The position numbers and the translations under genes are program-made. Positions 2 through 19,732 of a stretch of DNA of 33,249 nt are shown here, piece after piece. Source of the stretch: Deltaproteobacteria bacterium. Its GTDB lineage: Bacteria; Desulfobacterota; Desulfomonilia; Desulfomonilales; Desulfomonilaceae. The notes under the pieces are model-generated. The model made no database searches. It was given only the letters and a program-made list of their open reading frames with translations, and was not told where the DNA came from. The stretch lies in assembly GCA_016875095.1 (NCBI GenBank), contig VGSG01000046.1, positions 1 to 33,249 on the forward strand, in the 5' to 3' direction. Positions within the stretch are counted from its first letter, which is position 1. Each line of letters begins with the position of its first letter.

Positions 2-1921
2 GTACGGATCGGTGGGTCGGAGATCAAGAACCGCGTGGCGATGACGGCCATGGGAGTGAACCTCGCCGCGGCGGGGGGCGGCGTCAACGACGACATCATC
101 GCTTTCTACGAGGCACGGGCACGGGGCGGAGTAGGCCTCATCATCAGTGGACTATGCCGAGTCATGGACGGCGTGGGCGCATCTGAACCATGCCAGCTCG
201 CCTCTAGAAACGGTGCGGATGTGCAGGGGCTCGCGCGGCTCATGGACACGGTGCACAAATACGGCGCGAGGATGTTCATCCAGTTGCAGCACCCCGGCCG
301 CCAGGCCAGCGTCACGGTCGGAGGCGAGCAGCCAGTCTCCGCTTCGGCGGTGCTAAACCCCACTACGGGAGAGGCGCCCCGCGCGCTCACGGTAGCTGAG
401 ATCGGGCAAATCCGGGAGGCGTTCGTGAAAGGGGCATTCCTGGCGCAGATGGCGGGAGCGGACGGCGTCGAGCTGCACGGAGCGCATGGCTACTTGATCA
501 ACAGCTTCCTATCCCCGTATCTCAACCGGCGTGACGACGATTATGGCGGCGCCTTCGAGAACCGCCTGCGGTTCGTGATGGAGATCCTCTCGGGTATCCG
601 CGCGGCATGCGGCAACCGCTTCCCACTCGGCGTCCGGATCTCGGCCGAGGAATTCCTGGGAGACCAGGGGAACGACCTGGCCGCAAGCTGCAGGATCGCA
701 GCCGAACTGGAGAAGGCCGGCGCCGACTTCCTCGACATCAGCCAGACCATCCCGGACAGCCCCAAGTTCACCGCCTGCATCGAACCGGGCACGATCGAGC
801 AGGGATGGAAGAAATACATGGCGGCTGAGATTAAGAAACACGTGAAGATACCGATCATCGCTGTAGCGAACATTAAGGAGCCGGCGGTCGCGGAGGCGAT
901 CCTGGCAGAGGGCTGCTGCGACCTGGTGGGCGTCGCGCGCGGGCATCTCGCGGACCCGGAGTGGTGCAAAAAGGCGAAGGCCGGCAAGACGGAGACCATA
1001 CGCAAGTGCATCGGCTGCCTCGTGTGCTTCGACGAGATCGTACACGAGCGACACGCCAAGTGCTCGGTGAACCCGACCACCTGCCGCGAACGCGAGTTCG
1101 CCAACCCGGCCCGCGATGGCGCGGGGCGAACGGTGGCGGTGGTGGGCGGCGGCCCCGCGGGGGTCACGGCCGCCATGGTCCTTCGGGAACGCGGCTTTCG
1201 CGTCGTGCTGTTCGACCCGTCCCCGAGGCTCGGCGGCACGCTGAATGTGGCCGACAAGGGCTTCGACAGAGAGAAAATCACTCGGTACGTCGATTCCCTG
1301 ATCGCACAGGTGGAGGAAAGCGGTGTGGAGCTGCGCCTCGGGGAAGAGGCGACAGTGGAGAAAGTTGGGGCCCTCTCCCCCTGCGGTGTCTTCATCGCGT
1401 GCGGCTCGCGGCCGATCGTACCGCCGGTCCCAGGGATCGACGGGAAAAACGTCGTCATCGCGGAAGACGTGCTTGTGGGGCGGGCGGAGGTCAAAGGCGA
1501 CTGCGTGATCGTCGGTACGGGTATGACGGGCCTCGAGACCGCGGAGGTGGTGATGCGGGCCGGGCACAAGACGACCCTCGTGGACATGCTGCCGCAGATC
1601 GGCGCTGGCGCGAACATTATCGTGATCATGGACGTCAAGGAGCGCATGGCGTGCTACGATCCGGTCAATTTGCCGGGGCACCGGCTGCTGAAGATCACCG
1701 CGGAGGGAGCAGAGCTCGAATGTGTGGAAAGCGGCGCCTCCGTGTTCGTCGCGGCTGACACCGTGATCCTGGCGCTGGGCGTCCGGCCGCACAAGGAGGT
1801 CGTCGACCGCTTTAAAGCGGCCTTCCCCGACGCGCGGGTCATGGGCGACGCGGTGCGCCGCGGGCGGATAGTGGATGCGACCCAGGACGCCTACGGCCAA
1901 GCGTTCGTGTTCGAGCCGTAG
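2..1921 (+). CDS. Old Yellow Enzyme-type FMN/[4Fe-4S]/FAD reductase (enoate or 2,4-dienoyl-CoA reductase family), 5'-truncated by window edge
   Basis: The reading frame is open from base 2, and its first codons (V R I G G S E I K N R V) match the usual start region of the family, so the true start lies before the window; the GTG at 35 is internal. An N-terminal FMN TIM barrel carries the family motif HGAHGYLINSFLSP (about 477-518). It is followed by a cysteine cluster C-x2-C-x2-C-x11-C (about 1009-1065) that should bind a [4Fe-4S] cluster. Two Rossmann motifs follow: VAVVGGGPAG (about 1135) for FAD and VIVGTGMTG (about 1507) for NAD(P)H. The family transfers hydride from NAD(P)H through FAD, Fe-S and FMN to an activated C=C bond. 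The GWHE motif that holds the FadH catalytic His in the second reductase of this window (14208-16211) is not seen here, so the substrate probably differs. It heads a plus-strand series of CoA-ester genes. Family is confident, substrate unknown. Confidence 0.9.
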   Translation, partial: VRIGGSEIKNRVAMTAMGVNLAAAGGGVNDDIIAFYEARARGGVGLIISGLCRVMDGVGASEPCQLASRNGADVQGLARLMDTVHKYGARMFIQLQHPGRQASVTVGGEQPVSASAVLNPTTGEAPRALTVAEIGQIREAFVKGAFLAQMAGADGVELHGAHGYLINSFLSPYLNRRDDDYGGAFENRLRFVMEILSGIRAACGNRFPLGVRISAEEFLGDQGNDLAASCRIAAELEKAGADFLDISQTIPDSPKFTACIEPGTIEQGWKKYMAAEIKKHVKIPIIAVANIKEPAVAEAILAEGCCDLVGVARGHLADPEWCKKAKAGKTETIRKCIGCLVCFDEIVHERHAKCSVNPTTCREREFANPARDGAGRTVAVVGGGPAGVTAAMVLRERGFRVVLFDPSPRLGGTLNVADKGFDREKITRYVDSLIAQVEESGVELRLGEEATVEKVGALSPCGVFIACGSRPIVPPVPGIDGKNVVIAEDVLVGRAEVKGDCVIVGTGMTGLETAEVVMRAGHKTTLVDMLPQIGAGANIIVIMDVKERMACYDPVNLPGHRLLKITAEGAELECVESGASVFVAADTVILALGVRPHKEVVDRFKAAFPDARVMGDAVRRGRIVDATQDAYGQAFVFEP

Positions 1922-2033
1922 GACATAATCGAAACAGTCGTTGAATGGACGCCGGCATCTTCGCCTTGTGCACAGGTCGGAAGTCGGCGCAGCTCCAACT
2001 TGAGGACTCGAATGTTGCGGAAGAGGAACGAAC

Positions 2034-2846
2034 ATGAGCGAAACGAAAGAGTACTACCGGGATAAGGTTGCCGTCGTAACGGGCGGGGCCTCGGGCATCG
2101 GACTGGCGCTGGCGGAAACCATGCTTTCCTATGGAGCGAAGCGGGTCGTCCTCGCTGATATTAACGAGGCGAACCTGGTCCGGGAGACCGCACGGCTAAA
2201 CGCGGCCCACCCCGGCCAGGCCCTCGGAGTCCGGTGCGACGTCACGAATGAGGAAGAGGTCGAACGCATGATCCAACAAGCGTCTGAATTTGGCGAAAGA
2301 CGCATAGACCTCCTTTTTAATAATGCAGGCGCCGGTTTCTGGGGACATTTTGAGGAGCAGACCAATGGGGACTGGGAGAAAGCGTTTGCCCTGAATTTCT
2401 ACGCGGCAGTCTACTGTATCCGTGCCGTCTTGCCGGTCATGCGGGCCCAGGGAGATGGGCACATTGTTAGCATAATTTCCGGCATCGCATTAGTGCCGAT
2501 GCCCCAGCAAACGATGTATTCCGCTACGAAAGCCGCCCTGAACGGGTTGACCATCGCTCTCCGCTACGAGCTCTGGGACGAGAACATACGCCTGACATCG
2601 GCCACGCCCGGCACCACAGCCACCCCGATCTGGGGAGACATGGAAGCCCCTCCGGGCTCCCAGTCGCCGGAGCAGTCCGCTCGGACGGTCCTGAGAGGAG
2701 TGGCGAAAAACGAGCGACTTGTTTTTGGGGACGAGACGGACGTTTACTCGGGCAGGTATTGTTTCAATACCGACCTTGCTAAAAACTTCGATGAGTACCT
2801 CCTGGACGTGGCCAGGAAGCGGCGACGTGGCGAGGGTATTTTCTGA
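2034..2846 (+). CDS. short-chain dehydrogenase/reductase (SDR)
   Basis: A classical SDR of 270 residues. The nucleotide-binding motif TGGASGIG is at residues 16-23, an acidic residue (Asp42) after beta-2 suggests NAD(H) preference, NNAG is at 96-99, and the catalytic set Ser149, Tyr162 (YSATK) and Lys166 is intact with normal spacing. The ATG is preceded by AGAGGAAC as ribosome-binding site. It lies 112 bp after the flavoprotein gene and 34 bp before the acetoacetate-decarboxylase-family gene, in the same direction, so co-transcription is likely. By context it probably oxidises or reduces a hydroxy/keto group on an acyl or cyclic intermediate of the same pathway; this is inference. The C-terminal tail is Arg-rich (RKRRRGEGIF). 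Substrate cannot be read from the sequence. Confidence 0.9.
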   Translation: MSETKEYYRDKVAVVTGGASGIGLALAETMLSYGAKRVVLADINEANLVRETARLNAAHPGQALGVRCDVTNEEEVERMIQQASEFGERRIDLLFNNAGAGFWGHFEEQTNGDWEKAFALNFYAAVYCIRAVLPVMRAQGDGHIVSIISGIALVPMPQQTMYSATKAALNGLTIALRYELWDENIRLTSATPGTTATPIWGDMEAPPGSQSPEQSARTVLRGVAKNERLVFGDETDVYSGRYCFNTDLAKNFDEYLLDVARKRRRGEGIF

Positions 2847-2880
2847 TAAGGGTTTCACTACAACAAGGAGGTATTGATTC

Positions 2881-3750
2881 ATGAAAAACGGCAGCTATTT
2901 TATCCCGCGTGAACAGATTTACTCGTTCATGAACCCCGGCGCGATGAACAACGAAGAGGGCCTCTACATTGCCTGGGAGACCGACCCCGGCGCAGCGCGA
3001 CGCGTACTGCCGCCGCAGTTCGATCTCGTCGACCCCGCGCACCCCATGGCTATGGTGTACGTCGTCAACATCCGCGAGCCCACGTTCGCACCGTGGTACA
3101 TGGAAGGCGGCATCAGCCTGCTCTGCCGATACGGAGAGACCGTGGGCGTCTACTTCCTGAACCTCCAGCTCAGCGGCCCGGGCGCGCATATGGGCCTATG
3201 CAGCGGGCGTGAAACGTCCGGGCTGCCCAAGAAGATGTGCGAGCGCATCGTCGTCGAGCGCAACGGCGACTGGGCGAGCGCTCTCATCGAGAGAAAGGGC
3301 CGGCGTATCTTCTCTGTCGAGGTGGAGATGGGGGAGTACAACGACCCCCTCATGGAAGTCATGCGCAAGGATTACGGGCCGGGATATCGGGAAAGGGGCG
3401 CCTGCCTGCTGTTCCGGTACGAGTACGAACCGGAGCCGGACGGCCACATAACGGTCCCGAAGATGCGCCTGGTCCACTACGACAGCGTCACCGACTTCCA
3501 GACCTGGGAGCCGGCCCACGTCACATCGCTCCACATGGAGCCATCGCTCGACGATCCCTGGGCAGAGCTCGCGGTAGTGAAGCTCCTCGGCGCCGGGTAC
3601 AGCGTCAATTCCAACTGGATCGCCGGCATCTCGCCACTCGCACAGTTCGAGGGGGACGAGGCGGACAGCCTGATTTCATACCTGTTCTCGGGCCGCTGGG
3701 ACCGCTCCACCCTCGTCACGGGCCGTTATCAACGCTACGGACAGTTCTAA
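2881..3750 (+). CDS. acetoacetate decarboxylase (ADC)-family protein
   Basis: 289 residues with the ADC-family fold signature. The segment ETSGLPKK (residues 111-118) matches the active-site loop of acetoacetate decarboxylase, in which the first of two adjacent lysines forms the Schiff base; here these are Lys117 and Lys118. A strong ribosome-binding site AAGGAGG sits 9 bp before the ATG. True acetoacetate decarboxylases are about 245 residues, so this is a longer member of the superfamily, which also contains hydratase- and aldolase-like enzymes. Placement between an SDR and a 3-hydroxyacyl-CoA dehydrogenase suggests it acts on a 3-keto acid or related intermediate of the local catabolic pathway. 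The lysine pair supports Schiff-base chemistry; the actual reaction is not determinable. Confidence 0.85.
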   Translation: MKNGSYFIPREQIYSFMNPGAMNNEEGLYIAWETDPGAARRVLPPQFDLVDPAHPMAMVYVVNIREPTFAPWYMEGGISLLCRYGETVGVYFLNLQLSGPGAHMGLCSGRETSGLPKKMCERIVVERNGDWASALIERKGRRIFSVEVEMGEYNDPLMEVMRKDYGPGYRERGACLLFRYEYEPEPDGHITVPKMRLVHYDSVTDFQTWEPAHVTSLHMEPSLDDPWAELAVVKLLGAGYSVNSNWIAGISPLAQFEGDEADSLISYLFSGRWDRSTLVTGRYQRYGQF

Positions 3751-3769
3751 TGCTTCAGGAGGACTCATC

Positions 3770-4684
3770 ATGAAAGTCGAGGACATCCGCAAGATACTCG
3801 TGGTGGGCGTAGGCAAGATGGGGCAGATGATTGCTCTTCAGTGCGCCCGCTGCGGCTACGAGGTGGTCGCCTATGACGCGTTCCCCAAGTCCCTGGAGAC
3901 CGCGCGGGTACAAATACCCGCCTTGGCCGCTGATTTGGTGGCACGGCAGAAAATGACGCCAGAAGACGCCGAGGCCGCTCTGTCCCGGATCCACTACACT
4001 TCCCACCCAGAGGACGGGGCCGACGCGGACCTGCTGAGCGAGTCGGTGGTTGAGGACGTCGAGCTGAAAGCAAAAGTTTTTGGCCAGTTTCACCAGATCT
4101 GCCAGCCGAAGGCGGTCTTTACGACCAACACGTCCACGCTGTTACCTTCCATGTGGGCTGAGGCCACGGGTCGGCCCGCCCAGTTCGCCGCGCTGCACTT
4201 CCTCGACGCGTTCGATGCCCCCCTGGTCGACATCATGCCGCACCCAGGAACCTCTCCGGAAATCGTGGAGCTCCTGGCGGCTTTCGCAAAACGAATCAAG
4301 CAGGTACCGCTGATTTTCAAGAAAGAGTACCGCGGCTATGTGTCGAACGCCATCTTCGGGGCCATGAACGATATGGCGTTCAAATTGGTGTTTATGGACA
4401 AAGTCGCGTCTGTGGAGGACGTGGACAGGGCGGTCATGATTCACTTACGAATGCCCGCCGGAATTTTCGGACTGCTGGACCGCATAGGGCTGGATACCAT
4501 CTGGCACGTGATGGAGAGCAATGCGAAGACGTCAAGCGACCCCGGCGCCCAACAATTCGCGGACGAATTCAAGCAGCTCTATATCGACAAGGGCTGGCTG
4601 GGCGTCAAATCGGGCCGGGGCTTTTATACCTACCCTGACCCGGCTTACCTCCGTCCAGAGTTCCTGGGCCTTGACCCCCAGTAA
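3770..4684 (+). CDS. 3-hydroxyacyl-CoA dehydrogenase family protein
   Basis: 304 residues, the normal size of a stand-alone 3-hydroxyacyl/3-hydroxybutyryl-CoA dehydrogenase. The NAD-binding motif GVGKMG (residues 13-18) opens the Rossmann domain, with Asp36 ending beta-2. The catalytic-region serine (TNTS, about Ser122) and the HF histidine (His143) are present, but the conserved HFFNP segment reads HFLDAF and the usual catalytic Glu of LVE reads Asp154 (LVD). The C-terminal helical domain ends with the family motif GRGFYTYPDP. AGGAGG lies 6-7 bp before the ATG, and the gap to the upstream gene is only 19 bp, so it is operonic. It should interconvert 3-hydroxyacyl-CoA and 3-ketoacyl-CoA; the altered loop hints at a non-standard substrate. 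Confidence 0.87.
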   Translation: MKVEDIRKILVVGVGKMGQMIALQCARCGYEVVAYDAFPKSLETARVQIPALAADLVARQKMTPEDAEAALSRIHYTSHPEDGADADLLSESVVEDVELKAKVFGQFHQICQPKAVFTTNTSTLLPSMWAEATGRPAQFAALHFLDAFDAPLVDIMPHPGTSPEIVELLAAFAKRIKQVPLIFKKEYRGYVSNAIFGAMNDMAFKLVFMDKVASVEDVDRAVMIHLRMPAGIFGLLDRIGLDTIWHVMESNAKTSSDPGAQQFADEFKQLYIDKGWLGVKSGRGFYTYPDPAYLRPEFLGLDPQ

Positions 4685-6558: not shown

Positions 6559-7389
6559 GGATTCGGAGGGACGTTGGGCTGATTGTCATTGTTGGCTCTG
6601 ATTCTCTGATCGTCTTCTCAGGACCATATTGCCGGTAAGGGAGGGAACGTCTATATTTGTAACTCGTTCCCCAGGCAAAAGGACTAGAGACAGGTGCACC
6701 GTGAAGAAGAGAGCGTTATGAAGACTTGAGTCTGAGTTCTCTTGCCTTCCTGCACGGCCTCTCCCGAACAAAAAGTGAATTTGGGCTGTAGCCGTCCGGT
6801 AAGCCCTACAAAATACCGATGCTGCGAGCGGGCAGGACAACATCCGATTTCCCCTTCACGAGGCCCTTACCGCGTAAATACAGCAGACGAGCATTCCTGA
6901 TCCATACTGCTGACTCCTATTCCGCCCCTCCTCTTACAGTCACCCGTATCTCCGTCTCTCCAGAATCCCATCTCATCCGGTCGATGGCGTTGTGAAGGTC
7001 CGCGTTGCTATCGACCAGGCACAGGCTCCAATGGACCGACTCATTAGGCGTTGATCGAGGTCGGAGCGAAAGTCGCGCATCATGGTCGAGGAGATATGTC
7101 CATGCGGCTTCAGCCTTCCCCCTTGGTCCGGCGCTACCAAGCCGTGTTCGGGGGCGGGGCGACGAAAATTCTGTCTTTGACCGACCGGGGCGTGGTGAGG
7201 TACGCTCAGAAACAGGAGAAAAGAGGCCTCTTCATCAACTTGACGACGGTTTTGCTTGGTCCGGCGGTTTCGGATTCCACACGGAGACCTTATTCAAGGT
7301 CAGCGGAGCTATCCCTCGATCACTCACGGGTTCCAAAACAGGCAGAACAGCAAGACCGCAGCATAATTCCGGATAAGGGGAGATTTATC
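6559..7389 (+). other. 831-bp intergenic stretch without a supportable gene
   Basis: No reading frame here resembles a known protein. The frame of the downstream acyl-CoA dehydrogenase stays open back to about 7051, but that extension shows no domain and lacks a good start site, so it is treated as leader sequence. I find no tRNA or clear sigma-54 element by eye. The promoter for the acyl-CoA dehydrogenase gene should lie here. Decayed coding sequence cannot be excluded. Confidence 0.5.
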
Positions 7390-8562
7390 ATGATCAGTTT
7401 TGAACTATCGCAAAACAGAAGGATTATGAGGGACACGGCCGCGAAATTTGCACGTGAGGAAATTTTGCCTGTGCGGAATCAGTTCGAACTCGACTACGCC
7501 GACGGGAAGTGTATGGACAAGATCTTTCTGGAGGCGGCTAAACTAGGACTGCTCGGATTCCCCATCGAGGAGAAATATGGTGGTTCCGACGGGAACAATT
7601 TGGACGTCATGGTTATTCTGGAAGAGATCGCGGCTGTAGACGGCGGAGTGGCTACGGCTATCGGTGATACATGGTTCGCGATGACCCCCATCATCATTGC
7701 TGCGGACTCCGAGCAACGGGAAAGGTTCTTGAGACCGTTGGCTTCAAGAACAGAGGCAAACCTGGCCGCCATATGCATGACCGAGCCGCAGTCAGGAGCA
7801 GACATCGAGGATCCCCGAATGGGACTTCGCACCTGCCGCACCATTGTCACGCAGGACGGAGCGGATCTTGTCATAAACGGAACCAAGGCCTGGCCGAGTA
7901 ATGCGGGGATCGCCCATCTCTATGTTGTCGTTGGAACAGTGGACCCGAAGCTTGGCGAGCAAGGCTCGTGCCTGGTGGTGGTTGAGAAAGATCGTAAGGG
8001 ACTATCCTTTGGCAAACCGGAACAGAAGATGGGGATGCATGCGGATAGGAATTCCGAGGTCATCCTCGAGAATGTCCGGGCGCCCCGAAAAAATCTGCTG
8101 GGCAACATCGGGGATGGAGCCAAGATTCTGCAAAGGACCCTGATTTATAATCGGCTCGGCGGAGGAATGATATCCGTTGGCATTGCTCGCGGCGCATTTG
8201 AATATGCGCTCGGGTACTGCAAGGAACGGGTGGTGGGTGGAAAACCTCTCATCGAGCACAGCCTGATCGCCGACATGTTCGCGAAAATGGCGACTAATAT
8301 TGATGCCGCTCGCCTCCTGGTCTTCCGTTCCGCATGGGCGAATATGAATCGTCATCCAGACCGTGCACGGTTTTCCGATATGGCAAAAGTCTTTGCTACC
8401 AACATGGCTATGGAGGTCACCACCCAGTGCGTACAGGTCATGGGCTCTTACGGGTATTCGAAGGAGTATCCAGTGGAAAAGTACATGCGGGACGCCAAGA
8501 TTGTGCAAATCTTCTTGGGTCCGAATGAGCTTCTGACGCAACTCATCGGGAAAAGCCTTTAA
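7390..8562 (+). CDS. acyl-CoA dehydrogenase-fold flavoprotein lacking the canonical catalytic Glu
   Basis: The ATG at 7390, preceded by AAGGGGAG, gives 390 residues, the standard family length, and the N-terminus MISFELSQNRRIMRDT fits the usual first helix; the longer open frame upstream is not used. FAD-contact motifs are recognisable: CMTEPQSGADIED (129-141) and NGTKAW (163-168), and the C-terminal domain has YPVEKYMRDAK (360-370). Family members normally read YEGTNE next, with Glu as the base that removes the alpha proton. Here it is FLGPNE (375-380), so Leu376 replaces that Glu. The alternative base position used by isovaleryl-CoA dehydrogenase (ERL in helix G) reads NRL (Asn254). Either another residue serves, or the enzyme catalyses a different flavin reaction. 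It is monocistronic by appearance and co-directional with the upstream CoA-ester genes. Confidence 0.88.
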   Translation: MISFELSQNRRIMRDTAAKFAREEILPVRNQFELDYADGKCMDKIFLEAAKLGLLGFPIEEKYGGSDGNNLDVMVILEEIAAVDGGVATAIGDTWFAMTPIIIAADSEQRERFLRPLASRTEANLAAICMTEPQSGADIEDPRMGLRTCRTIVTQDGADLVINGTKAWPSNAGIAHLYVVVGTVDPKLGEQGSCLVVVEKDRKGLSFGKPEQKMGMHADRNSEVILENVRAPRKNLLGNIGDGAKILQRTLIYNRLGGGMISVGIARGAFEYALGYCKERVVGGKPLIEHSLIADMFAKMATNIDAARLLVFRSAWANMNRHPDRARFSDMAKVFATNMAMEVTTQCVQVMGSYGYSKEYPVEKYMRDAKIVQIFLGPNELLTQLIGKSL

Positions 8563-8848: not shown

Positions 8849-8940
8849 GCCCCCAATATCGGATAATATATTGATATGATTAGGTGCGCCGCCCGCCTCT
8901 CACGACGGAGACAGGGATTCGATTCCCCTTGGGGCCGCCA
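8849..8940 (+). pseudogene. degenerate tRNA-Glu(CTC)-like sequence
   Basis: From about 8880 to 8940 the sequence follows a bacterial tRNA-Glu: TAGG of the D arm, an anticodon-loop-like CTCTCAC (anticodon CTC), a T arm with loop TTCGATT, and a 3' end GGGGCCG followed by CCA. Several features are broken. The anticodon stem has mismatches, the base pair closing the T loop is A-C, and the 5' half is AT-rich and about 15 nt too long. A possible 5' acceptor strand GCCCCCA at 8849 pairs with the 3' strand with one mismatch. It is therefore probably a tRNA pseudogene or a tRNA 3'-end copy of the sort left by integrating elements. A working tRNA is unlikely. Confidence 0.5.
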
Positions 8941-9045
8941 TGCGATGAAAAAACACGTTCACATCACAAGATTCGTCACCCCTTCGTCATATCTTTCCAT
9001 ATCCGGACGCCGACTTACTGGCATTACGTCCAAAGGGGTTGAAAG

Positions 9046-9214: not shown

Positions 9215-9274
9215 ATGGCTTTCAAGCTGATCCGGTCTCCTTCAGCTCAGCTATATCGATGCCTCCGTGACTAA
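9215..9274 (+). pseudogene. truncated RelE/ParE-type toxin remnant
   Basis: A good Shine-Dalgarno AAAGGAGG (about 9197-9203) precedes an ATG at 9215, and the first residues MAFKLIRSPSAQ match the common start of plasmid-stabilisation/RelE-family toxins (MxxKxxWSPxA). The frame stops after only 19 codons, and no other frame restores the family sequence before the convergent gene ends at 9271. The toxin of the module is therefore lost or cut off, probably by the rearrangement that brought in the downstream block. Confidence 0.5.
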
Positions 9275-9837
9275 GGATTGTCAGCCTGACCGACATCCAA
9301 CCATTCAGCGAGCATGGACGCGTAATCCGGATCCAAATGGCGACTGGAGTAGAGAAAGGTCTTCCCGACGGAGGTGATCGTCTGCGCGATGTCCTGATAC
9401 TCTTTGTCCTCTCCCATGACTCTGAGACACTCCAAGATTGCTTCCAGGGTCAGGTCGAAGGGCGACTCCATAAATCCTGCTACAGGAACAGGTCTCGGAT
9501 AACGCTTGGAGTTCTCTCGAACCACCTCGGCTATCAGCCAAAGCGGGTTCTCCGATTTCAACACCAGAATTCCAGCGTAAGTTTCGCTCAAGCGCCGAAC
9601 AGAATAATAGTAACAAACTCCGTTTGGCGCTAAGATCTCTTTGACGTCTCGATTCTCTTGCAGCGCTTGTTTGAGCGCGGTTTCCAGATGGGTTTTGGGC
9701 TTAATCTCTTCTGATGTGAGAAGCCCTCGTCGTTTTAGTTCGGTCAAGATCTCCTCAGCGCTGATGAGGCGCCCCGACTCGCTTCTGTCGCGGATGATAT
9801 TCAGAATATTTGCACGGACTTCTTCTTGGCGTTCCAT
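9271..9837 (-). CDS. uncharacterised 188-residue protein coupled to the AOR-family gene
   Basis: I do not recognise a named family. The protein is soluble, with no signal or membrane helix. The N-terminal half looks helical and charged (MERQEEVRANILNIIRD; then EEILTELKRRGLLTSEE, which could be a winged-helix-like segment). The middle has CYYYSVRRLSETYAGIL and the C-terminal part is again helical. A ribosome-binding site GAGAGG precedes the ATG, and only 9 bp separate it from the stop of the AOR-family gene, so it is the third gene of that operon. A role in regulation, cofactor loading or maturation of the oxidoreductase is possible but unproven. The homologous E. coli ydh operon has no such gene that I recall. 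Confidence 0.7.
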   Translation of the reverse strand: MERQEEVRANILNIIRDRSESGRLISAEEILTELKRRGLLTSEEIKPKTHLETALKQALQENRDVKEILAPNGVCYYYSVRRLSETYAGILVLKSENPLWLIAEVVRENSKRYPRPVPVAGFMESPFDLTLEAILECLRVMGEDKEYQDIAQTITSVGKTFLYSSRHLDPDYASMLAEWLDVGQADNP

Positions 9838-9846
9838 GGTCGCCTC

Positions 9847-11952
9847 TCACGGTAGCAGCCCTCTCTTGGCAAGCTCGTCGGCTACAGTCCCCAGACCGAG
9901 CCTGCGGTATGTCGCCTTGGTGGGGGAGCCGGTTTCCTTGTCCCAGGCCATCTCCTCGTAAAACATGTCCATTGCGAGCTTGATGTCTTCTTTGTCCATG
10001 CGAATGGTTCCTTTGCTAAATGCGGCTTTATCTTTGGGGTCCGTGAACACCCAATCGGGGATCGTGTCGTGTTTGGTCCGCATGTCTTTGGCGCCCATAT
10101 CGCGAATGGTCAGAGCCCTATGGAGCAGGAAGATCCGCTCTGCTATCGTATCAAGCTCCTGACGGGATTTCTTGTCGCCGGTAGCCAAGCTGTAGAGCAA
10201 CGATTCGATGGAGTCGTCGCCTCGATACTCACGCTCTTTAAGGGGCGAAGCAACCCATGGCCCCATCCAGTTGCAGAGGGACAGGCAGTCGTGCAATTCT
10301 TTTCTCAAAAGGGACCATTTGGCCATTTTGGCTTTGTGCGCATTCATCGGCGTGAAAGCCGCGACTGCGTCTACCGCATCGGGTGAGCCCCAAAGCTCGG
10401 CAGCCAGCCTCTTTTGGACCTCTATGGGTAATCCGTTTCGAGTGAAATTGCTGTGGGAATGGCACTGAGCATCACGATTGTATTGCGTGTTAATGATCAC
10501 TCCGCATTGTCCCGCATCCTCGTTTGAATGATGTTTGGGATGCCCCAGCTTCCAGTACAGCAGGTCATGATTCTCCAGCCACTCCTGCTCCGGGATACCC
10601 CATCGTTCGAGAAGGTGACCGGTCCCCAAGCCGAGCGCGGTCGCCAGCTCGCCTTCCTTATTCGCGATTCTTGGAAGCAGTTCGAAGAGGAATGTGGGAT
10701 CTCCTTGCTCGTATTTGTTCCAAGAATAGCTGTTGAATTCCTTCTCAGCCACCTTGCGCTTGAAAATGCCGTTATAGTAGAGCGCTTGAAAATCGCGTTG
10801 CAGTTGACCGTAATTGTCCCACACTCCAAGATCGTCCGCCAAATACATGCCGACCATACAAGCCTCAATTGCGGTCTGGCCCTTGGGACCGTCCGGAAAA
10901 GACTTGAAGAACGCTCTGCCAAACAGCAACCCAACGCAAGTGTTCTGGCCCAGTTCCGGAATACCATATTTTGCGGAAACCGCCGGCACTTTGAGCATGG
11001 TATGGCAACGGATGGGACAAGCTGTGCAGCCATTTCCTCTGACCGTGTGCTGCCAAGCCTTGTCTCCCAGAAAGTAGGCCGCATTGTTCGTTCGATATGC
11101 AATCCTATTAAGGTTGTGGGGTTCGCACGCGCCTGTGTCGATGCTCGGGTTCGCTGCGCCCCATCGCCGACCGGCCGAAGCCATCCACCTGGAACCTGCG
11201 TTGTAGTGTTCCGCCCACGGTTGAGGATTACTAGGAACCACATGCTGGTTGTTCGCTCCTAAGAGAGAAAGGTGGAGCTTAATGAGCTTCTCCCATTCTT
11301 CTTTGTTCCCGGCAATGCGCACACTGCCGGTTCCTCGAACACCGATGGCTTTGAGGTTCTTGGACCCCATGACCCCGCCGACTCCCCCGGCAGAATGAGA
11401 ATAGGAATTCATCACCACAGACATCGGCGCCAAATTCTCACCTGCTTGGCCGATAGCAGCCACCGATGCCTCCGGTCCCATCTGTTGGTTAATTTCAATT
11501 GTAGTCCGCCGTATACCCTGCCCCCAAAGTTGTCGGGCATCCTTGATTTCCACCTTCTCATCCCAAACTGAGAGCCACACCGGACGGTCGGCCCTCCCTT
11601 CGATGATGATGGCATCATAGCCGGCATACTTAAGTTCCGCAGCAAACTGACCACCCATATGACCACTGGCAACGAGGGCTTTTGGCCAACAGGTAGGCCA
11701 CAAAGTTGTTATGGCAGTCCTTCCGTTACAAGGAGCGCCCGTCCCAGCCAACGGGCCGACCCCGTAGACGATCTTGTTCGCCGGATCAAAAGATTTGACC
11801 CCGGCCTGAACCTCATCCCAAATCACCTTGTATCCTATTCCCGTGCCCCCTAAGTAATCTCTGTATTTCTCTAAGGTATCTTCAGTTGAGATTTTCCCGG
11901 TCGACAAATCAACCCGCAGGACCTTTCCCGCCCAGCCTCCGTGCTTAGCCAT
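9847..11952 (-). CDS. aldehyde ferredoxin oxidoreductase-family (W/Mo pterin) enzyme, YdhV-like
   Basis: 701 residues, the same length as E. coli YdhV and similar to it throughout, beginning WAGKVLRVDLSTGKI and including the pterin-binding region with NGRTAITT and GHMGGQFAAELKYAGYDA. The [4Fe-4S] ligands appear as C-T-A-C-P-I-R-C (C-x2-C-x3-C) in the middle, with the distal ligand probably in LSLCNWMGPW. The family binds tungsten or molybdenum bis-pterin plus one Fe-S cluster and catalyses low-potential two-electron oxidations or reductions (aldehydes, and in BamB aromatic CoA esters). No signal peptide is visible. GAGGAG lies upstream of the ATG, and the gene follows the ferredoxin gene by 20 bp. 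Substrate unknown; the nearby CoA-ester genes make an aldehyde/acid or acyl-CoA redox role plausible. Confidence 0.92.
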   Translation of the reverse strand: MAKHGGWAGKVLRVDLSTGKISTEDTLEKYRDYLGGTGIGYKVIWDEVQAGVKSFDPANKIVYGVGPLAGTGAPCNGRTAITTLWPTCWPKALVASGHMGGQFAAELKYAGYDAIIIEGRADRPVWLSVWDEKVEIKDARQLWGQGIRRTTIEINQQMGPEASVAAIGQAGENLAPMSVVMNSYSHSAGGVGGVMGSKNLKAIGVRGTGSVRIAGNKEEWEKLIKLHLSLLGANNQHVVPSNPQPWAEHYNAGSRWMASAGRRWGAANPSIDTGACEPHNLNRIAYRTNNAAYFLGDKAWQHTVRGNGCTACPIRCHTMLKVPAVSAKYGIPELGQNTCVGLLFGRAFFKSFPDGPKGQTAIEACMVGMYLADDLGVWDNYGQLQRDFQALYYNGIFKRKVAEKEFNSYSWNKYEQGDPTFLFELLPRIANKEGELATALGLGTGHLLERWGIPEQEWLENHDLLYWKLGHPKHHSNEDAGQCGVIINTQYNRDAQCHSHSNFTRNGLPIEVQKRLAAELWGSPDAVDAVAAFTPMNAHKAKMAKWSLLRKELHDCLSLCNWMGPWVASPLKEREYRGDDSIESLLYSLATGDKKSRQELDTIAERIFLLHRALTIRDMGAKDMRTKHDTIPDWVFTDPKDKAAFSKGTIRMDKEDIKLAMDMFYEEMAWDKETGSPTKATYRRLGLGTVADELAKRGLLP

Positions 11953-11972
11953 TTATCCGCATCTCCTCTTTC

Positions 11973-12704
11973 TTACTTCTTATGGCACTCGTTGCAGGTC
12001 TGCGCCTTCTCAGGCGCGACTATGGCCGTGGGCGCCACTCTTGGTGGAATCTTGCCTGTCAAGTCGCGCCAAGCAGCGTAGGTAAGGGCTCCGGACGGAC
12101 ATGCTTCGACACACTTGGGGCTTCCGTCGCAGAGGAAGCACTTGGTGGCCTTATTCGTGCCCGAATCGAATGACATCATTTCCCAGGGGCAAGCCCGCCG
12201 GCACATTTTGCAGCCACTACACCTTTTGGAATCCACAACGCGAGCATTTGTCGGGGGTCTCACAACGATGGCGTCATTCGGACAGGCGTTCGCGCAAGGC
12301 ACAGGATGGGGACATTGGTTGCAAATATCCTGGATCACCAACCCATTTCCCCACGCGCCTCCGCCACGTTGCCCGGTAGGAATGCCATTGACTCCGAAAT
12401 TAAGGTTTCGACTGATCTTGATCCTTGCAATCGTTGGAGAAGCCTTTCCGTCATTAAACTCTGTACAGGCCAGCTCGCATCGCCTGCAGCCCACGCATTT
12501 CGTCGGATCTGCTATTACGAGGCCTTCAGCCTGATCCATAATGATGACAGGTCCCTCTTTAGCGGCCTTTGCTCCCGAAGCGGAAAACGCAATAATGAGA
12601 CCCCCGGTCATAAGAAAAAACTCACGCCGTGAAGAAGAATGGCTCGAATTAATAAAATCCAGAGCGCTTTCCAAAATTTCATGCTTTTGCTTTTCGCCAG
12701 TCAT
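11973..12704 (-). CDS. four-cluster ferredoxin with Tat signal, YdhY-like electron-transfer partner
   Basis: 243 residues. Sixteen cysteines are arranged as four [4Fe-4S] groups: C70/73/76/80, C128/131/137/141, C162/165/168/172 and C189/192/198/202. The order and the segment CVGCRRCELACTEFNDG closely resemble E. coli YdhY. The N-terminus contains a twin-arginine motif SRREFF (25-30) followed by a hydrophobic stretch ending ASGAKA, so export by Tat or membrane anchoring is predicted. The C-terminus has an extra tail ending CNECHKK (237-243), which fits the CxxCH haem c attachment pattern and is unusual in such ferredoxins. It is the first gene of the operon with the AOR-family enzyme and should carry its electrons. 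It may bring the signal-less enzyme to the membrane or periplasm. Confidence 0.88.
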   Translation of the reverse strand: MTGEKQKHEILESALDFINSSHSSSRREFFLMTGGLIIAFSASGAKAAKEGPVIIMDQAEGLVIADPTKCVGCRRCELACTEFNDGKASPTIARIKISRNLNFGVNGIPTGQRGGGAWGNGLVIQDICNQCPHPVPCANACPNDAIVVRPPTNARVVDSKRCSGCKMCRRACPWEMMSFDSGTNKATKCFLCDGSPKCVEACPSGALTYAAWRDLTGKIPPRVAPTAIVAPEKAQTCNECHKK

Positions 12705-13130: not shown

Positions 13131-14120
13131 TCAAATCTCCATCAGGTCTTTTCCGACGATCACCTTTCCGTCGAAATGGGCTCGCGCGCCCTCGATCCAC
13201 ATTTCATCAGTGACCGACGTGTCGTCCGAAGGCACAATGTGAGACAGGACCAAAGTCTTGACTCCTGCGGCCTTTGCCACTTTTCCCACATCATCATGCG
13301 TGGTGTGGCTGGCAACGATGTGCTCAAGGAGTTTTTCCGCATTGGGGATTCGGGCAATAAGCTTGGCCAGAGACGGTTTGTGAATTACTTCATGCACCAG
13401 CACGTCCGCGCCCTGAGCCAGCTTTATCAAATTGTCCGAAGGCGTGGTGTCTCCCGAGATCACAATGGACCGATCGGCCGCATCAAACCGGAAGGCAAAG
13501 GCAGGAACCACAGGGGGATGATGAACGAGGGTCGCTGTTACCTTAACGTTCTCGTCCCGCATTACCAACCCTTCTTTGTCGAATTCGTGGACCGTTACGA
13601 GGGGCACCAGAGGCACTCTTTGCTCGTCGGCTATTCTTGTGTCGATGTCATAAGCGTTCAATTCAAAGTACAGCTTGGTCATTTTCTCTATCGGCGGCGG
13701 TCCGTACGTATCCACCGGCGTTTTGAGCCCGCTGGCCCATGCCAACAAAAGAAGGTTCCCGTAATCCGCGTTGTGATCTGAATGATGATGAGTTAAGAAC
13801 ACGCGCCGAAGTTTGAGCAGAGGAACTCCCGCCATGACCAGTTGCCGGGAAACTCCCGAGCCGCAATCGACCACATAGGGAACGGAATTGACCAGTATGA
13901 CCTGAGCCGGCGAGGATCGCACTTTGTTGGGGCGCGGCCCGCCCGCGGTGCCGAGGAGAATCAACCGTGTCCCGGACAATTTTTTGTCGGCGGAACTCGA
14001 GCCTCCGGTCGCAGCTTGCCCGGCCGAGGCTGTTTTCGCTCCACCACTCAACAGAGCCTGACCGGCAGCCAGGGCTGAAATGCCCGCTGCCACGAATCTG
14101 CGTCGAGTCATCTTTTTCAT
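13131..14120 (-). CDS. Tat-exported metallo-beta-lactamase-fold hydrolase (RNase Z/arylsulfatase-like)
   Basis: The ATG at 14120 is preceded by AAAGGGGG and gives 329 residues starting MKKMTRRRFVAAG, a textbook twin-arginine signal followed by an Ala-rich hydrophobic core; the open frame upstream adds 22 residues with no support. The zinc-binding motif THHHSDH (110-116) and the later SGDTTPSDN and VLVHEVIHK segments are those of the MBL fold, RNase Z/ElaC-like branch. Presence of a Tat signal argues against tRNA processing and for a periplasmic hydrolase acting on an ester, lactone, sulfate or similar. It lies 87 bp after the dienoyl-CoA reductase gene on the same strand, so it could be co-transcribed with it. 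Confidence 0.85.
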   Translation of the reverse strand: MKKMTRRRFVAAGISALAAGQALLSGGAKTASAGQAATGGSSSADKKLSGTRLILLGTAGGPRPNKVRSSPAQVILVNSVPYVVDCGSGVSRQLVMAGVPLLKLRRVFLTHHHSDHNADYGNLLLLAWASGLKTPVDTYGPPPIEKMTKLYFELNAYDIDTRIADEQRVPLVPLVTVHEFDKEGLVMRDENVKVTATLVHHPPVVPAFAFRFDAADRSIVISGDTTPSDNLIKLAQGADVLVHEVIHKPSLAKLIARIPNAEKLLEHIVASHTTHDDVGKVAKAAGVKTLVLSHIVPSDDTSVTDEMWIEGARAHFDGKVIVGKDLMEI

Positions 14121-14207
14121 GACAACCCCCTTTGTTGGAGAAAGGAAGAGGCGCTCGCAGGGCTTGCGGGATGACACCTCAGTCACCCATGCCTACCGCA
14201 ACCGCTC

Positions 14208-16211
14208 TTACACTTCGAGCGCGAGATTGAATCCTTCTTCTACCGCGTCGCCGATTTTGCCTACTTTCGCGGCGTCACCGATAACCTTGACTTCCACCCC
14301 CGTGGTCTCCAACTCCTTGGCCAAGAAGTTTTCCGAGCGAGCGCCCATTGCCAAGACCACTGTGTCAGCGGGGAGGGTTTGTTCGTTCCCCTGTGAGTCG
14401 GTATAGGTGACCTTTCCCTCTGAGATGGACTTCATGGTTGCGCCGGTTATGATTTGAATTCCCCTGGTGTGCAGGTCCTTCATGAGCACCCATCGGGTCG
14501 AGGGGCCCAGGTCCTGGCCGACACGGCCGAGCATCTCCAGGACCGTTACGTTCTTGACCCCTTTCGTGATGAGCTCCCGCAGCGCCTCCGGCCGCTCCGC
14601 TTGATGCAGAGTGAGGAAATAGAGCTGCTCCGGTGAGATGGTCCCCTTGGATGCAAGGAAAACCGCGGTTTCCAGCCCCACGGAGCCTCCTCCGACGACG
14701 ACGACATTGGTCCCGGTCTTGAGGTCGTCTTTCAGCACATCCCAGGCCTGGAGAACATAAGGGAGGTCCACCTCCGGAATGGGAGGTTTGAAAGGCGCCG
14801 CGCCGGTCGCCACGACCACGAGATCGGGTTTCTCTCGGGCAACAAAGGCGGGCGTGAGTTCCGTGTTCAGGCGCACGTCAACTTTGAGCTTGTCCAGCAT
14901 TGCCCGATAGTATGTGAACATATTCAGGTACTCCGGCTTTCGAGTGCGGACCGCAGACCAGTGGACCTGGCCGCCGAGGTAGTCAACCCTGTCAAATAGG
15001 ACTACTTTATGGCCGCGTTCCGTTGCGGCGCATGCAAACTCGCACCCTGCCGGACCAGCGCCTGCCACGAAAATCTTTTTGGCCTTTGTGGCTGGTTTCA
15101 GTTCAGTCTCACCTTCGCGGCCCGCCTTCGGGTTTACCATGCAGCCCACCGGCCTGAGTTGGAATACGTAATCAAAGCATCTCTGATTGCAGGCCACGCA
15201 GCGACGAATCTCATCGAACTTTTGTTGACGAGCCTTGTTCACGAATTCAGGATCGGCCAGGAGACCTCTGGCCACGCCCACGAGATCTGCGATGCCTTCA
15301 GCAAGGACATCCTCGGCAATCAGCGGATCGTTGATGCGATTGCAGCCGATCACCGGCACGCTCACATTTTCTTTGATGCCTCGGGCGAGATAAACGTACC
15401 CGGCCTGAGGCAAATCCATGGTGATCTGGGGAACTCGGCTTTCATGCCACCCACCCGTGACATTGATGCAGTCCGCGCCCGCATCCTGACATGCTCTGGC
15501 GAAGACGCGGGCCTCCTTGTTGGTGTGGCTGTCCTGGACAAAGTCGTTGCCGGCCACTCGAACGATGACCGCCATGTCCGATCCTGCTTCTTCCCGCACC
15601 TTGCGGATCACCTCAAGGCCGAATCGCATACGATTTTCCAGCGGTCCGCCGTATTCGTCGTCCCGCTTGTTCGTCTTGGGCGAAAGGAACTGGCAGATCA
15701 GGTACCCGGCCGACGCCAGGACCTCCACCGCGTCGAAACCCGCTGCTTTGGCCCGGCGAGCTGCTTGGACGAAATCGTCCTGGACCCTTAGTATGTCCGC
15801 CAGGGTCATCGCGGTGGTCTTCTGCCGCGTGAAGTACGACTCATACTCGGATGGCGCAAAGATCGGCAGGCCTTTCATACTCGCGAATGAGTATGCGCCC
15901 GCCATGTAGAGCTGGACAGCTATCTTGCCGCCCTCTTCATGAACCGCATCCACGAGCCTCTTCAGCCCGGGAATGTACTTGTCGTCTTTGATGGAGAGGA
16001 ACAGATCGACACCCGATGCTTCTGCGTCGATCTCCGCGCCTCCCACGATGACCAGACTCGCGCCCCCCCGGGCGCGGGCGCGGTAGAAGTTCACCATCCT
16101 GTCCGTCATTTCCCCTTGCGGACAGTAGTTCAAGTGCATTGCGGTCATCACCACCCGATTGGACAGCTTCATAGGGCCGACCGATATGGGCTCAAGCAGC
16201 TTTTGAATCAC
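14208..16211 (-). CDS. 2,4-dienoyl-CoA reductase-like FMN/[4Fe-4S]/FAD enzyme (FadH-like)
   Basis: I place the start at the GTG at 16211, because GGGAGG lies 5 bp upstream and the resulting N-terminus MIQKLLEPISVGPMKLSNR is typical; a GTG at 16244 overlapping the upstream stop (GTGA) is the alternative. The 667-residue protein has an FMN barrel with ASAGYLICQFLSP. Tyr170 and His256 (in GGWHESR) match the catalytic Tyr166 and His252 of E. coli FadH. Cluster ligands are C338/C341/C345/C357. FAD (FVAGAGPAG) and NAD(P) (VVVVGGGSVGLE) motifs follow. It should reduce the diene of 2,4-dienoyl-CoA using NAD(P)H. The crotonase directly upstream has dienoyl-CoA isomerase residues, so the two probably form a unit for unsaturated acyl-CoA. 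Confidence 0.9.
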   Translation of the reverse strand: MIQKLLEPISVGPMKLSNRVVMTAMHLNYCPQGEMTDRMVNFYRARARGGASLVIVGGAEIDAEASGVDLFLSIKDDKYIPGLKRLVDAVHEEGGKIAVQLYMAGAYSFASMKGLPIFAPSEYESYFTRQKTTAMTLADILRVQDDFVQAARRAKAAGFDAVEVLASAGYLICQFLSPKTNKRDDEYGGPLENRMRFGLEVIRKVREEAGSDMAVIVRVAGNDFVQDSHTNKEARVFARACQDAGADCINVTGGWHESRVPQITMDLPQAGYVYLARGIKENVSVPVIGCNRINDPLIAEDVLAEGIADLVGVARGLLADPEFVNKARQQKFDEIRRCVACNQRCFDYVFQLRPVGCMVNPKAGREGETELKPATKAKKIFVAGAGPAGCEFACAATERGHKVVLFDRVDYLGGQVHWSAVRTRKPEYLNMFTYYRAMLDKLKVDVRLNTELTPAFVAREKPDLVVVATGAAPFKPPIPEVDLPYVLQAWDVLKDDLKTGTNVVVVGGGSVGLETAVFLASKGTISPEQLYFLTLHQAERPEALRELITKGVKNVTVLEMLGRVGQDLGPSTRWVLMKDLHTRGIQIITGATMKSISEGKVTYTDSQGNEQTLPADTVVLAMGARSENFLAKELETTGVEVKVIGDAAKVGKIGDAVEEGFNLALEV

Positions 16212-16240
16212 GGCAACCTCCCACATCAAGGGGCGTAGGA

Positions 16241-17074
16241 TCACGCTCCCTTGAACTCTCCTTTTCGTTTTTGCATGAATGCGGCCATAGCCTCAAAGAG
16301 GTCTTCGGACGGCATGATCATACTGGACCTGGCCGCGTTGTAGTCCAGGGATTCTTCGAGCGCGGCTCTTTCCTGGAAGAGGAAGACCTCTTTGGCGCCC
16401 TGCACCGCTAACGGCGGATTCGCGGCGATCTCCAGGGCCATCTCGCGGGCAGCCGTCTCCAGGGCTTGAGGATCCCCGCACACGTGGTTCACCAACCCGA
16501 TGGACCGGGCGTATTCTGCGTTGAAGCGATGCCCTCGAAAAGCAATCTCACGGGCGAAACCTTTGCCCACAACTCTCGGGAGCCTCTGCAAGCCGCCCAC
16601 GTCCGTGATAATAGCCAGCGTAGCTTCGGGCAGCGAAAACACGGCATCTTGAGAGCAGATGCGAATATCGCAGCACAGCGCCAACTCAAGACCCGCGCCG
16701 AGACAGTGCCCCTGTATCACCGCAATCGTAGGCTTGGCGAGCCGTTCCAGCCGGGTGTGGATACCCTGAATCCTTCGGACCGTCCGATAGAAGGCCATTT
16801 TTTGAGTAGCGCTCGGTTGCCCGCTGAGGGCACCCACAATTTGGTTCTCCGGGCTCAAGTCCAGTCCCGCGCAAAAAGATTTGCCTGCGCCTTTCACAAG
16901 CACGATCCGCGCTTCCTCATCTTCTTCGGCTTTGGCTATAGCTGCGTCCAAAGCGCGCCAGAGGTCTAGGTTCAACGCATTCCGCTTATCAGGCCTGTTC
17001 AGCGTCAGTGAACCGATCCGATCCTCGCGATGATAGGTCACGAGCGCATCGTGCATAGGATCTTCCGTGCTCAT
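16241..17074 (-). CDS. enoyl-CoA hydratase/isomerase (crotonase) with dienoyl-CoA isomerase-like active site
   Basis: 277 residues with crotonase motifs: the oxyanion-hole segment SFCAGLDLSPE, then GHCLGAGLELALCCDIR and SLPEATLAIITDVGGLQRLP. Both hydratase-type glutamates are present (GLELA and LPEA). In addition, Asp lies 8 residues after the second Glu in TDVGGLQRLP. In mammalian delta(3,5)-delta(2,4)-dienoyl-CoA isomerase the catalytic Glu196 and Asp204 have the same spacing and the same DVGxLQRLP context. It may therefore shift double bonds rather than, or as well as, hydrate. AAGGAG lies upstream of the ATG. It directly precedes the FadH-like reductase gene, which supports joint action on dienoyl-CoA; the reaction assignment is inference from motifs. 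Confidence 0.88.
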   Translation of the reverse strand: MSTEDPMHDALVTYHREDRIGSLTLNRPDKRNALNLDLWRALDAAIAKAEEDEEARIVLVKGAGKSFCAGLDLSPENQIVGALSGQPSATQKMAFYRTVRRIQGIHTRLERLAKPTIAVIQGHCLGAGLELALCCDIRICSQDAVFSLPEATLAIITDVGGLQRLPRVVGKGFAREIAFRGHRFNAEYARSIGLVNHVCGDPQALETAAREMALEIAANPPLAVQGAKEVFLFQERAALEESLDYNAARSSMIMPSEDLFEAMAAFMQKRKGEFKGA

Positions 17075-19587: not shown

Positions 19588-19732
19588 AGGTTTTGCATCC
19601 GAACCGCGTGCGCGTTGAGCAGGGAGCGGCATCAACGCACGGCTTGCTCAGACGGGCAGAATAGCATCAAACGCCCTGTGCTCACAACACCTCATATTGA
19701 CGGCCTCAAGCACAAACTGATAAACCCATGCC

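Follow-up and report, generated by a model that had tools for sequence, protein, structure and literature searches.

A conserved Glu-less branch of the acyl-CoA dehydrogenase superfamily with a candidate relocated base

Results

We analysed a window of 33,249 nucleotides (the whole stretch of DNA under study; contig VGSG01000046.1, positions 1 to 33,249, of GenBank assembly GCA_016875095.1) from a deltaproteobacterium of the Desulfomonilaceae. An intact open reading frame at positions 7390-8562 of the forward strand encodes P0001, a protein of 390 amino acids that is a member of the acyl-CoA dehydrogenase (ACAD) superfamily without the usual catalytic glutamate. Its translation carries the motifs IFLGPNE and IYNRLGG and contains the N-terminal, middle and C-terminal ACAD domains (PF02771, PF02770 and PF00441), all above the Pfam cut-off. 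We judge the start to be sound because a Shine-Dalgarno-like stretch lies upstream (AAGGGGAG, positions 7375-7382, with GGGGAG 7 bases 5' of the ATG) and all full-length orthologs share the same methionine.

In HMMER alignments to ACADs of solved structure, Leu376 (8515-8517) in the JK-loop motif F-L-G-P-N-E (residues 375-380; 8512-8529) faces the catalytic Glu of IYEGTNE. Asn254 (codon AAT, 8149-8151), in helix G, directly precedes a conserved arginine and occupies the position of the helix-G catalytic base of isovaleryl-CoA dehydrogenase (IVD) and long-chain acyl-CoA dehydrogenase (LCAD) (PMC11153573). The original prediction, made from the sequence alone, had named both substitutions, and the residues and their numbering are right. 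It had also described the motifs for binding flavin adenine dinucleotide (FAD) as intact, which is mostly but not fully true. Among the residues that contact FAD in IVD (T200, R312, Q323, G384, T409 and E411; PMC12369846), counterparts are kept in P0001 as S170, R280, a Gly near 352 and E380, but Pro378 and Ser291 stand at the positions of Thr409 and Gln323, and RVVGG takes the place of the RxxFG motif. In the flavin-contact motif GTKAWPSN (7879-7902), Pro169-Ser170 replaces Ile-Thr. A further acidic residue, Asp93 (codon GAT, 7666-7668), lies in helix E and is our candidate for a relocated base.

Orthologs, found at 61-83% identity in a first scan of one genome per species across 84,980 species, all come from metagenome-assembled genomes of uncultured 'Deltaproteobacteria', Desulfobacterales or Syntrophales. 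The motifs [FY]LGPNE and YNRLG are kept throughout 14 distinct orthologs, and L376, N254 and D93 are each present in 14/14; in comparison, among the 64 other ACADs retrieved, 55 carry Glu at position 376 and just one carries Asp at position 93. A tree from an alignment stripped of its catalytic columns, a family tree having been one of the checks suggested by the original prediction, places the LGPNE sequences in a supported clade (SH-aLRT 99) with a Glu-less sister clade (SH-aLRT 94), and puts cyclohex-1-ene-1-carboxyl-CoA dehydrogenase (Ch1CoA DH) in a different one. Both Glu-less clades join L036 and L037 (WEGGAQ) and L051 (WLGGGQ) with an SH-aLRT of 100. The sister clade reads [YF]IG[AS]NE and YNR and so likewise lacks both acids; its five sequences have Asn254, Ala93 (5/5) and, in the four that cover the position, Ile376. 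P169 is invariant in both clades, as are E140 and D219, the latter two being found in at most 6% of sequences elsewhere.

The P0001 gene compared with that of L039 gives a pN of 0.10 against a pS of 0.81, indicating strong purifying selection. Because the loss of Glu is kept in independent genomes and under such selection, we do not regard it as decay or noise, and reject a pseudogene or a sequencing error as its source. On these comparisons the LGPNE ACADs are a real, conserved and uncharacterised Glu-less subfamily. Carriers of the LGPNE or sister group are few (7 of 395 genomes of the phylum in a profile search and 9 of 85 genomes of one class), so that the gene is rare and patchy. We note that one ortholog (L047:131-691) has an in-frame internal deletion of approximately residues 166-369 at a short AKI-like repeat, which is either a true deletion or an assembly chimera.

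An AlphaFold model of P0001 made from 67 aligned sequences (an earlier one from 8 close sequences, with a pLDDT of 40.6, was discarded) has a pLDDT of 95.9, a pTM of 0.94 and a classical ACAD fold. In it Asp93 lies in helix 85-104, Asn254 in helix 243-279 and Leu376 in the JK loop (373-378). Its structural matches are classical ACADs (1ukw: Z 57.7, 1.1 A over 376 residues), the complex of medium-chain ACAD with electron transfer flavoprotein (ETF), bifurcating butyryl-CoA dehydrogenase (Bcd)-ETF, Ch1CoA DH (7p9a: Z 55.0, 1.4 A over 377) and 3-sulfinopropionyl-CoA desulfinase (5ahs: Z 50.5, 1.8 A over 370). Most of the Z values are near each other, and the fold alone therefore cannot pick a function. 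The original prediction had looked to a predicted structure with FAD and an acyl-CoA for an acid at the active site; the present model supplies the fold and a candidate acid in helix E, but helical-wheel reasoning puts Asp93 on the flank of that helix.

In L095, L096 and L099 the gene order is ACAD-etfB-etfA-ACAD[LGPNE], with a gap of 30 bp between etfA and the LGPNE gene in L099. EtfB of L095 is of the electron-bifurcating type: its nearest matches, at approximately 200-233 bits (5ol2, 233; CarD, 222), are ETFs that serve the Bcd, caffeyl-CoA reductase and lactate dehydrogenase complexes, whereas human ETF scores 81. In L039, L040 and L080 a gene of the aldehyde-ferredoxin oxidoreductase (AOR) family lies within approximately 15 bp 3' of the LGPNE gene, and the truncated LGPNE gene of L047 overlaps an AOR-family gene directly 3'. 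The remaining LGPNE copies are solitary. A distant AOR follows the sister-clade gene in L082.

The P0001 gene itself stands alone, 831 bases after a gene for a predicted outer-membrane-type protein, which we rejected as a neighbour shared with L040 for want of similarity. It is convergent with a ydhW/ydhV-like cluster (9271-12704, reverse strand) that encodes a ferredoxin-like protein and an AOR-family enzyme above the PRK09849 cut-off (1063 bits). This AOR (9847-11952) was rejected as a linked partner, being convergent and, at that score, a YdhV equivalog; it shares just 35-38% identity with the AORs that adjoin other orthologs. The best match to that AOR in the same genome reaches 37% and is on another contig.

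Several further observations concern the surroundings of these genes. The sister-clade ACADs of L083 (6613-13046) and L082 (2-6081) are clustered with subunits of a B12-dependent mutase, an amidohydrolase and a second ACAD, joined in L082 only by a 3-hydroxyacyl-CoA dehydrogenase and the AOR; the cluster is possibly a new degradation pathway. The mutase is nearest 2-hydroxyisobutyryl-CoA mutase and has Val and Gly at the positions of a Tyr and an Arg in methylmalonyl-CoA mutase that handle dicarboxylic substrates. At L085:2562-10891 a related ACAD (WEGGAQ) belongs to a run of genes that also encodes an AOR, an activase of the acyl-CoA dehydratase/benzoyl-CoA reductase type, two HGD-D/benzoyl-CoA-reductase-like subunits, a MinD/NifH-like ATPase and a short CdhC-like protein. 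In the window, positions 8885-8943 (forward strand) resemble the 3' part of tRNA-Glu (GGAGACAGGGATTCGATTCCCCTTGGGGCCGCC), and two similar sites, with 3 mismatches each, occur elsewhere in the genome; neither ARAGORN nor Rfam finds a tRNA at 8885-8943. This is possibly what is left of an integration site, an origin that would agree with the patchy occurrence of the gene. The window also encodes an OYE-family reductase (BaiCD-like) with an SDR, an acetoacetate-decarboxylase-fold protein and a 3-hydroxyacyl-CoA dehydrogenase (35-4684, forward strand), a second OYE-family reductase with an enoyl-CoA hydratase and a metallo-beta-lactamase-fold protein (13131-17074, reverse strand), and an 811-residue B12-binding radical SAM protein (17200-19635, reverse strand).

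Discussion

The ETF genes beside three relatives make a redox role likely, and the LGPNE ACADs are most likely redox-active and not desulfinases. We tentatively favour an ACAD-family flavin oxidoreductase, functional and ETF-linked, that would use Asp93 as base in a vinylogous (1,4-type) dehydrogenation or in the corresponding reduction. The subfamily would bind FAD, pass electrons to or from ETF and act on an acyl-CoA, having given up deprotonation of C-alpha by Glu; P0001 would dehydrogenate or reduce an acyl-CoA that is unsaturated or alicyclic, with Asp93 on helix E as its relocated base. We prefer this combination because the pattern in Ch1CoA DH is similar, Asp93 lying one helical turn from the position of Asp91, the base of that enzyme. 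The conserved loss of Glu at both sites, alongside Asp93 in 14/14 sequences, supports this reading and gives the displaced base of the original prediction a concrete candidate.

Several points weigh against it. Asp91 of Ch1CoA DH aligns with Phe96 of P0001 and not with Asp93, and an exact match of base positions is accordingly rejected; helical-wheel reasoning leaves Asp93 on the flank of its helix; the Glu-less sister clade has Ala93 in 5/5; the other ACAD in the ETF operon of L095, L096 and L099 could be the partner of the ETF; and no same-direction ETF or AOR gene is linked to the P0001 gene in the window. Given Ala93 in the sister clade, and a side chain of Asp93 that may or may not point into the pocket, we hold the favoured reading well below certainty. 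We are more doubtful still of its fuller form, an undescribed subfamily whose base moved to Asp93 for vinylogous or remote-carbon redox chemistry on a CoA thioester, served by a dedicated bifurcating ETF or a dedicated AOR-family enzyme according to host.

The main rival, which we consider rather unlikely, is oxidative decarboxylation of a 2-carboxyacyl-CoA (an alkyl- or arylmalonyl-CoA), as by the benzylmalonyl-CoA dehydrogenase IaaF. Such a reaction needs no base, since the enolate arises as CO2 leaves C2 and hydride passes to FAD, and it would account for the missing acid in both clades. In L082 and L083 the sister-clade genes adjoin those for subunits of an acyl-CoA mutase dependent on B12, and in the iaa pathway IaaF is supplied by an enzyme of this kind; but the mutase here is nearest 2-hydroxyisobutyryl-CoA mutase, with the Val and Gly noted above, and there is no mutase near the LGPNE genes in the neighbourhoods examined. 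Moreover, IaaF is proposed to need a small GGG to make room for the carboxy group, whereas both Glu-less clades keep Phe or Tyr at 375 and a bulky Leu or Ile at 376.

It is also conceivable, at a lower probability, that P0001 catalyses an ordinary 1,2-dehydrogenation or reduction, with Glu140, Asp219, Asp93 or water carrying out proton transfer at C-alpha. The typical fold and the ETF synteny would suit such an enzyme, as would the near-exclusive invariance of E140 and D219 in the Glu-less clades. However, E140 aligns with a loop of LCAD (residues 179-182) that is near the CoA moiety and not C-alpha (PMC11153573), D219 is in the beta domain, and the inactivity of LCAD E291Q and IVD E286A indicates that Glu is needed in those enzymes (PMC11153573, PMC12369846).

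We think it improbable that P0001 is a binding protein without catalytic activity, or the base-less partner in a mixed tetramer of the kind formed by actinobacterial FadE pairs. The operons of L095, L096 and L099 do contain a second ACAD, which in L095 has the helix-G Glu, but no ACAD gene adjoins in the window or at most orthologs, and P0001 retains most FAD contacts and is under strong selection. Least probable of all is a lyase whose reaction involves no net redox change, for instance a 3-sulfinopropionyl-CoA desulfinase, the original prediction's example, for while loss of the base has turned the ACAD family to desulfination before and 5ahs superposes, P0001 scores 181.9 bits on NCBIfam model NF042439 (cut-off 600 bits) and ranks 21st among the 28 proteins of its genome that match, its motif is not AGG, and ETF genes are co-linear in three relatives.

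ACADs are among the best understood flavoenzymes. Members of the superfamily without the catalytic Glu are already known (PMC8360864), and several branches that lost it proved to do new chemistry: decarboxylating oxidation, desulfination and 1,4-dehydrogenation. The LGPNE clade adds a conserved branch in which both acids are missing; it offers a candidate for their replacement, and in relatives its genes adjoin those for ETF or AOR. Its reaction, once defined, would widen the range of ACAD chemistry and could identify a step still missing from anaerobic degradation in uncultured sediment bacteria.

Known systems share some of these features. IVD and LCAD also have a JK loop without Glu, but their base is on helix G, where P0001 has Asn254. 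The butyryl-CoA and caffeyl-CoA dehydrogenase-ETF systems (5ol2, 6fah, 4l1f) share the fold, and genes for bifurcating-type ETF lie beside three LGPNE relatives, but the catalytic Glu is still present in 5ol2 and 4l1f (IYEG). IaaF belongs to the ACAD family and lacks the loop Glu, but reads GGG where the LGPNE clade reads [FY]LG and is encoded in iaa operons (PMC8360864); no iaa genes (mutase IaaGH, CoA transferase IaaL) are present in the window or the LGPNE neighbourhoods. The desulfinase (5af7/5ahs) has the ACAD fold without the loop Glu, but reads AGG (PMC8360864) in contrast to FLG or YLG in all LGPNE sequences, and its reaction is non-redox whereas LGPNE relatives are linked to ETF. Unlike these room-making GGG and AGG motifs, the LGPNE clade keeps the aromatic residue at 375 and replaces Glu by bulky Leu.

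Ch1CoA DH (7p98), which performs 1,4-dehydrogenation (PMC9795900), shares with P0001 the retained aromatic, a neutral residue in place of the loop Glu (IYTGTN in 7p98), an Asp on helix E and a helix G without Glu. It differs in that Asp93 comes three residues before the position of Asp91, where P0001 has Phe96, in reading YTG against FLG or YLG and TGTNQ against LGPNE in the JK loop, and in belonging to another clade at approximately 36% identity. The genome that carries P0001 also encodes a close homolog of Ch1CoA DH (L053:258-1580; 563 bits to 7p98) adjoining a Glu-bearing cyclohexanecarboxyl-CoA dehydrogenase (L053:1492-2802; 646 bits, NF043006), a gene pair which suggests that the organism probably handles alicyclic CoA esters.
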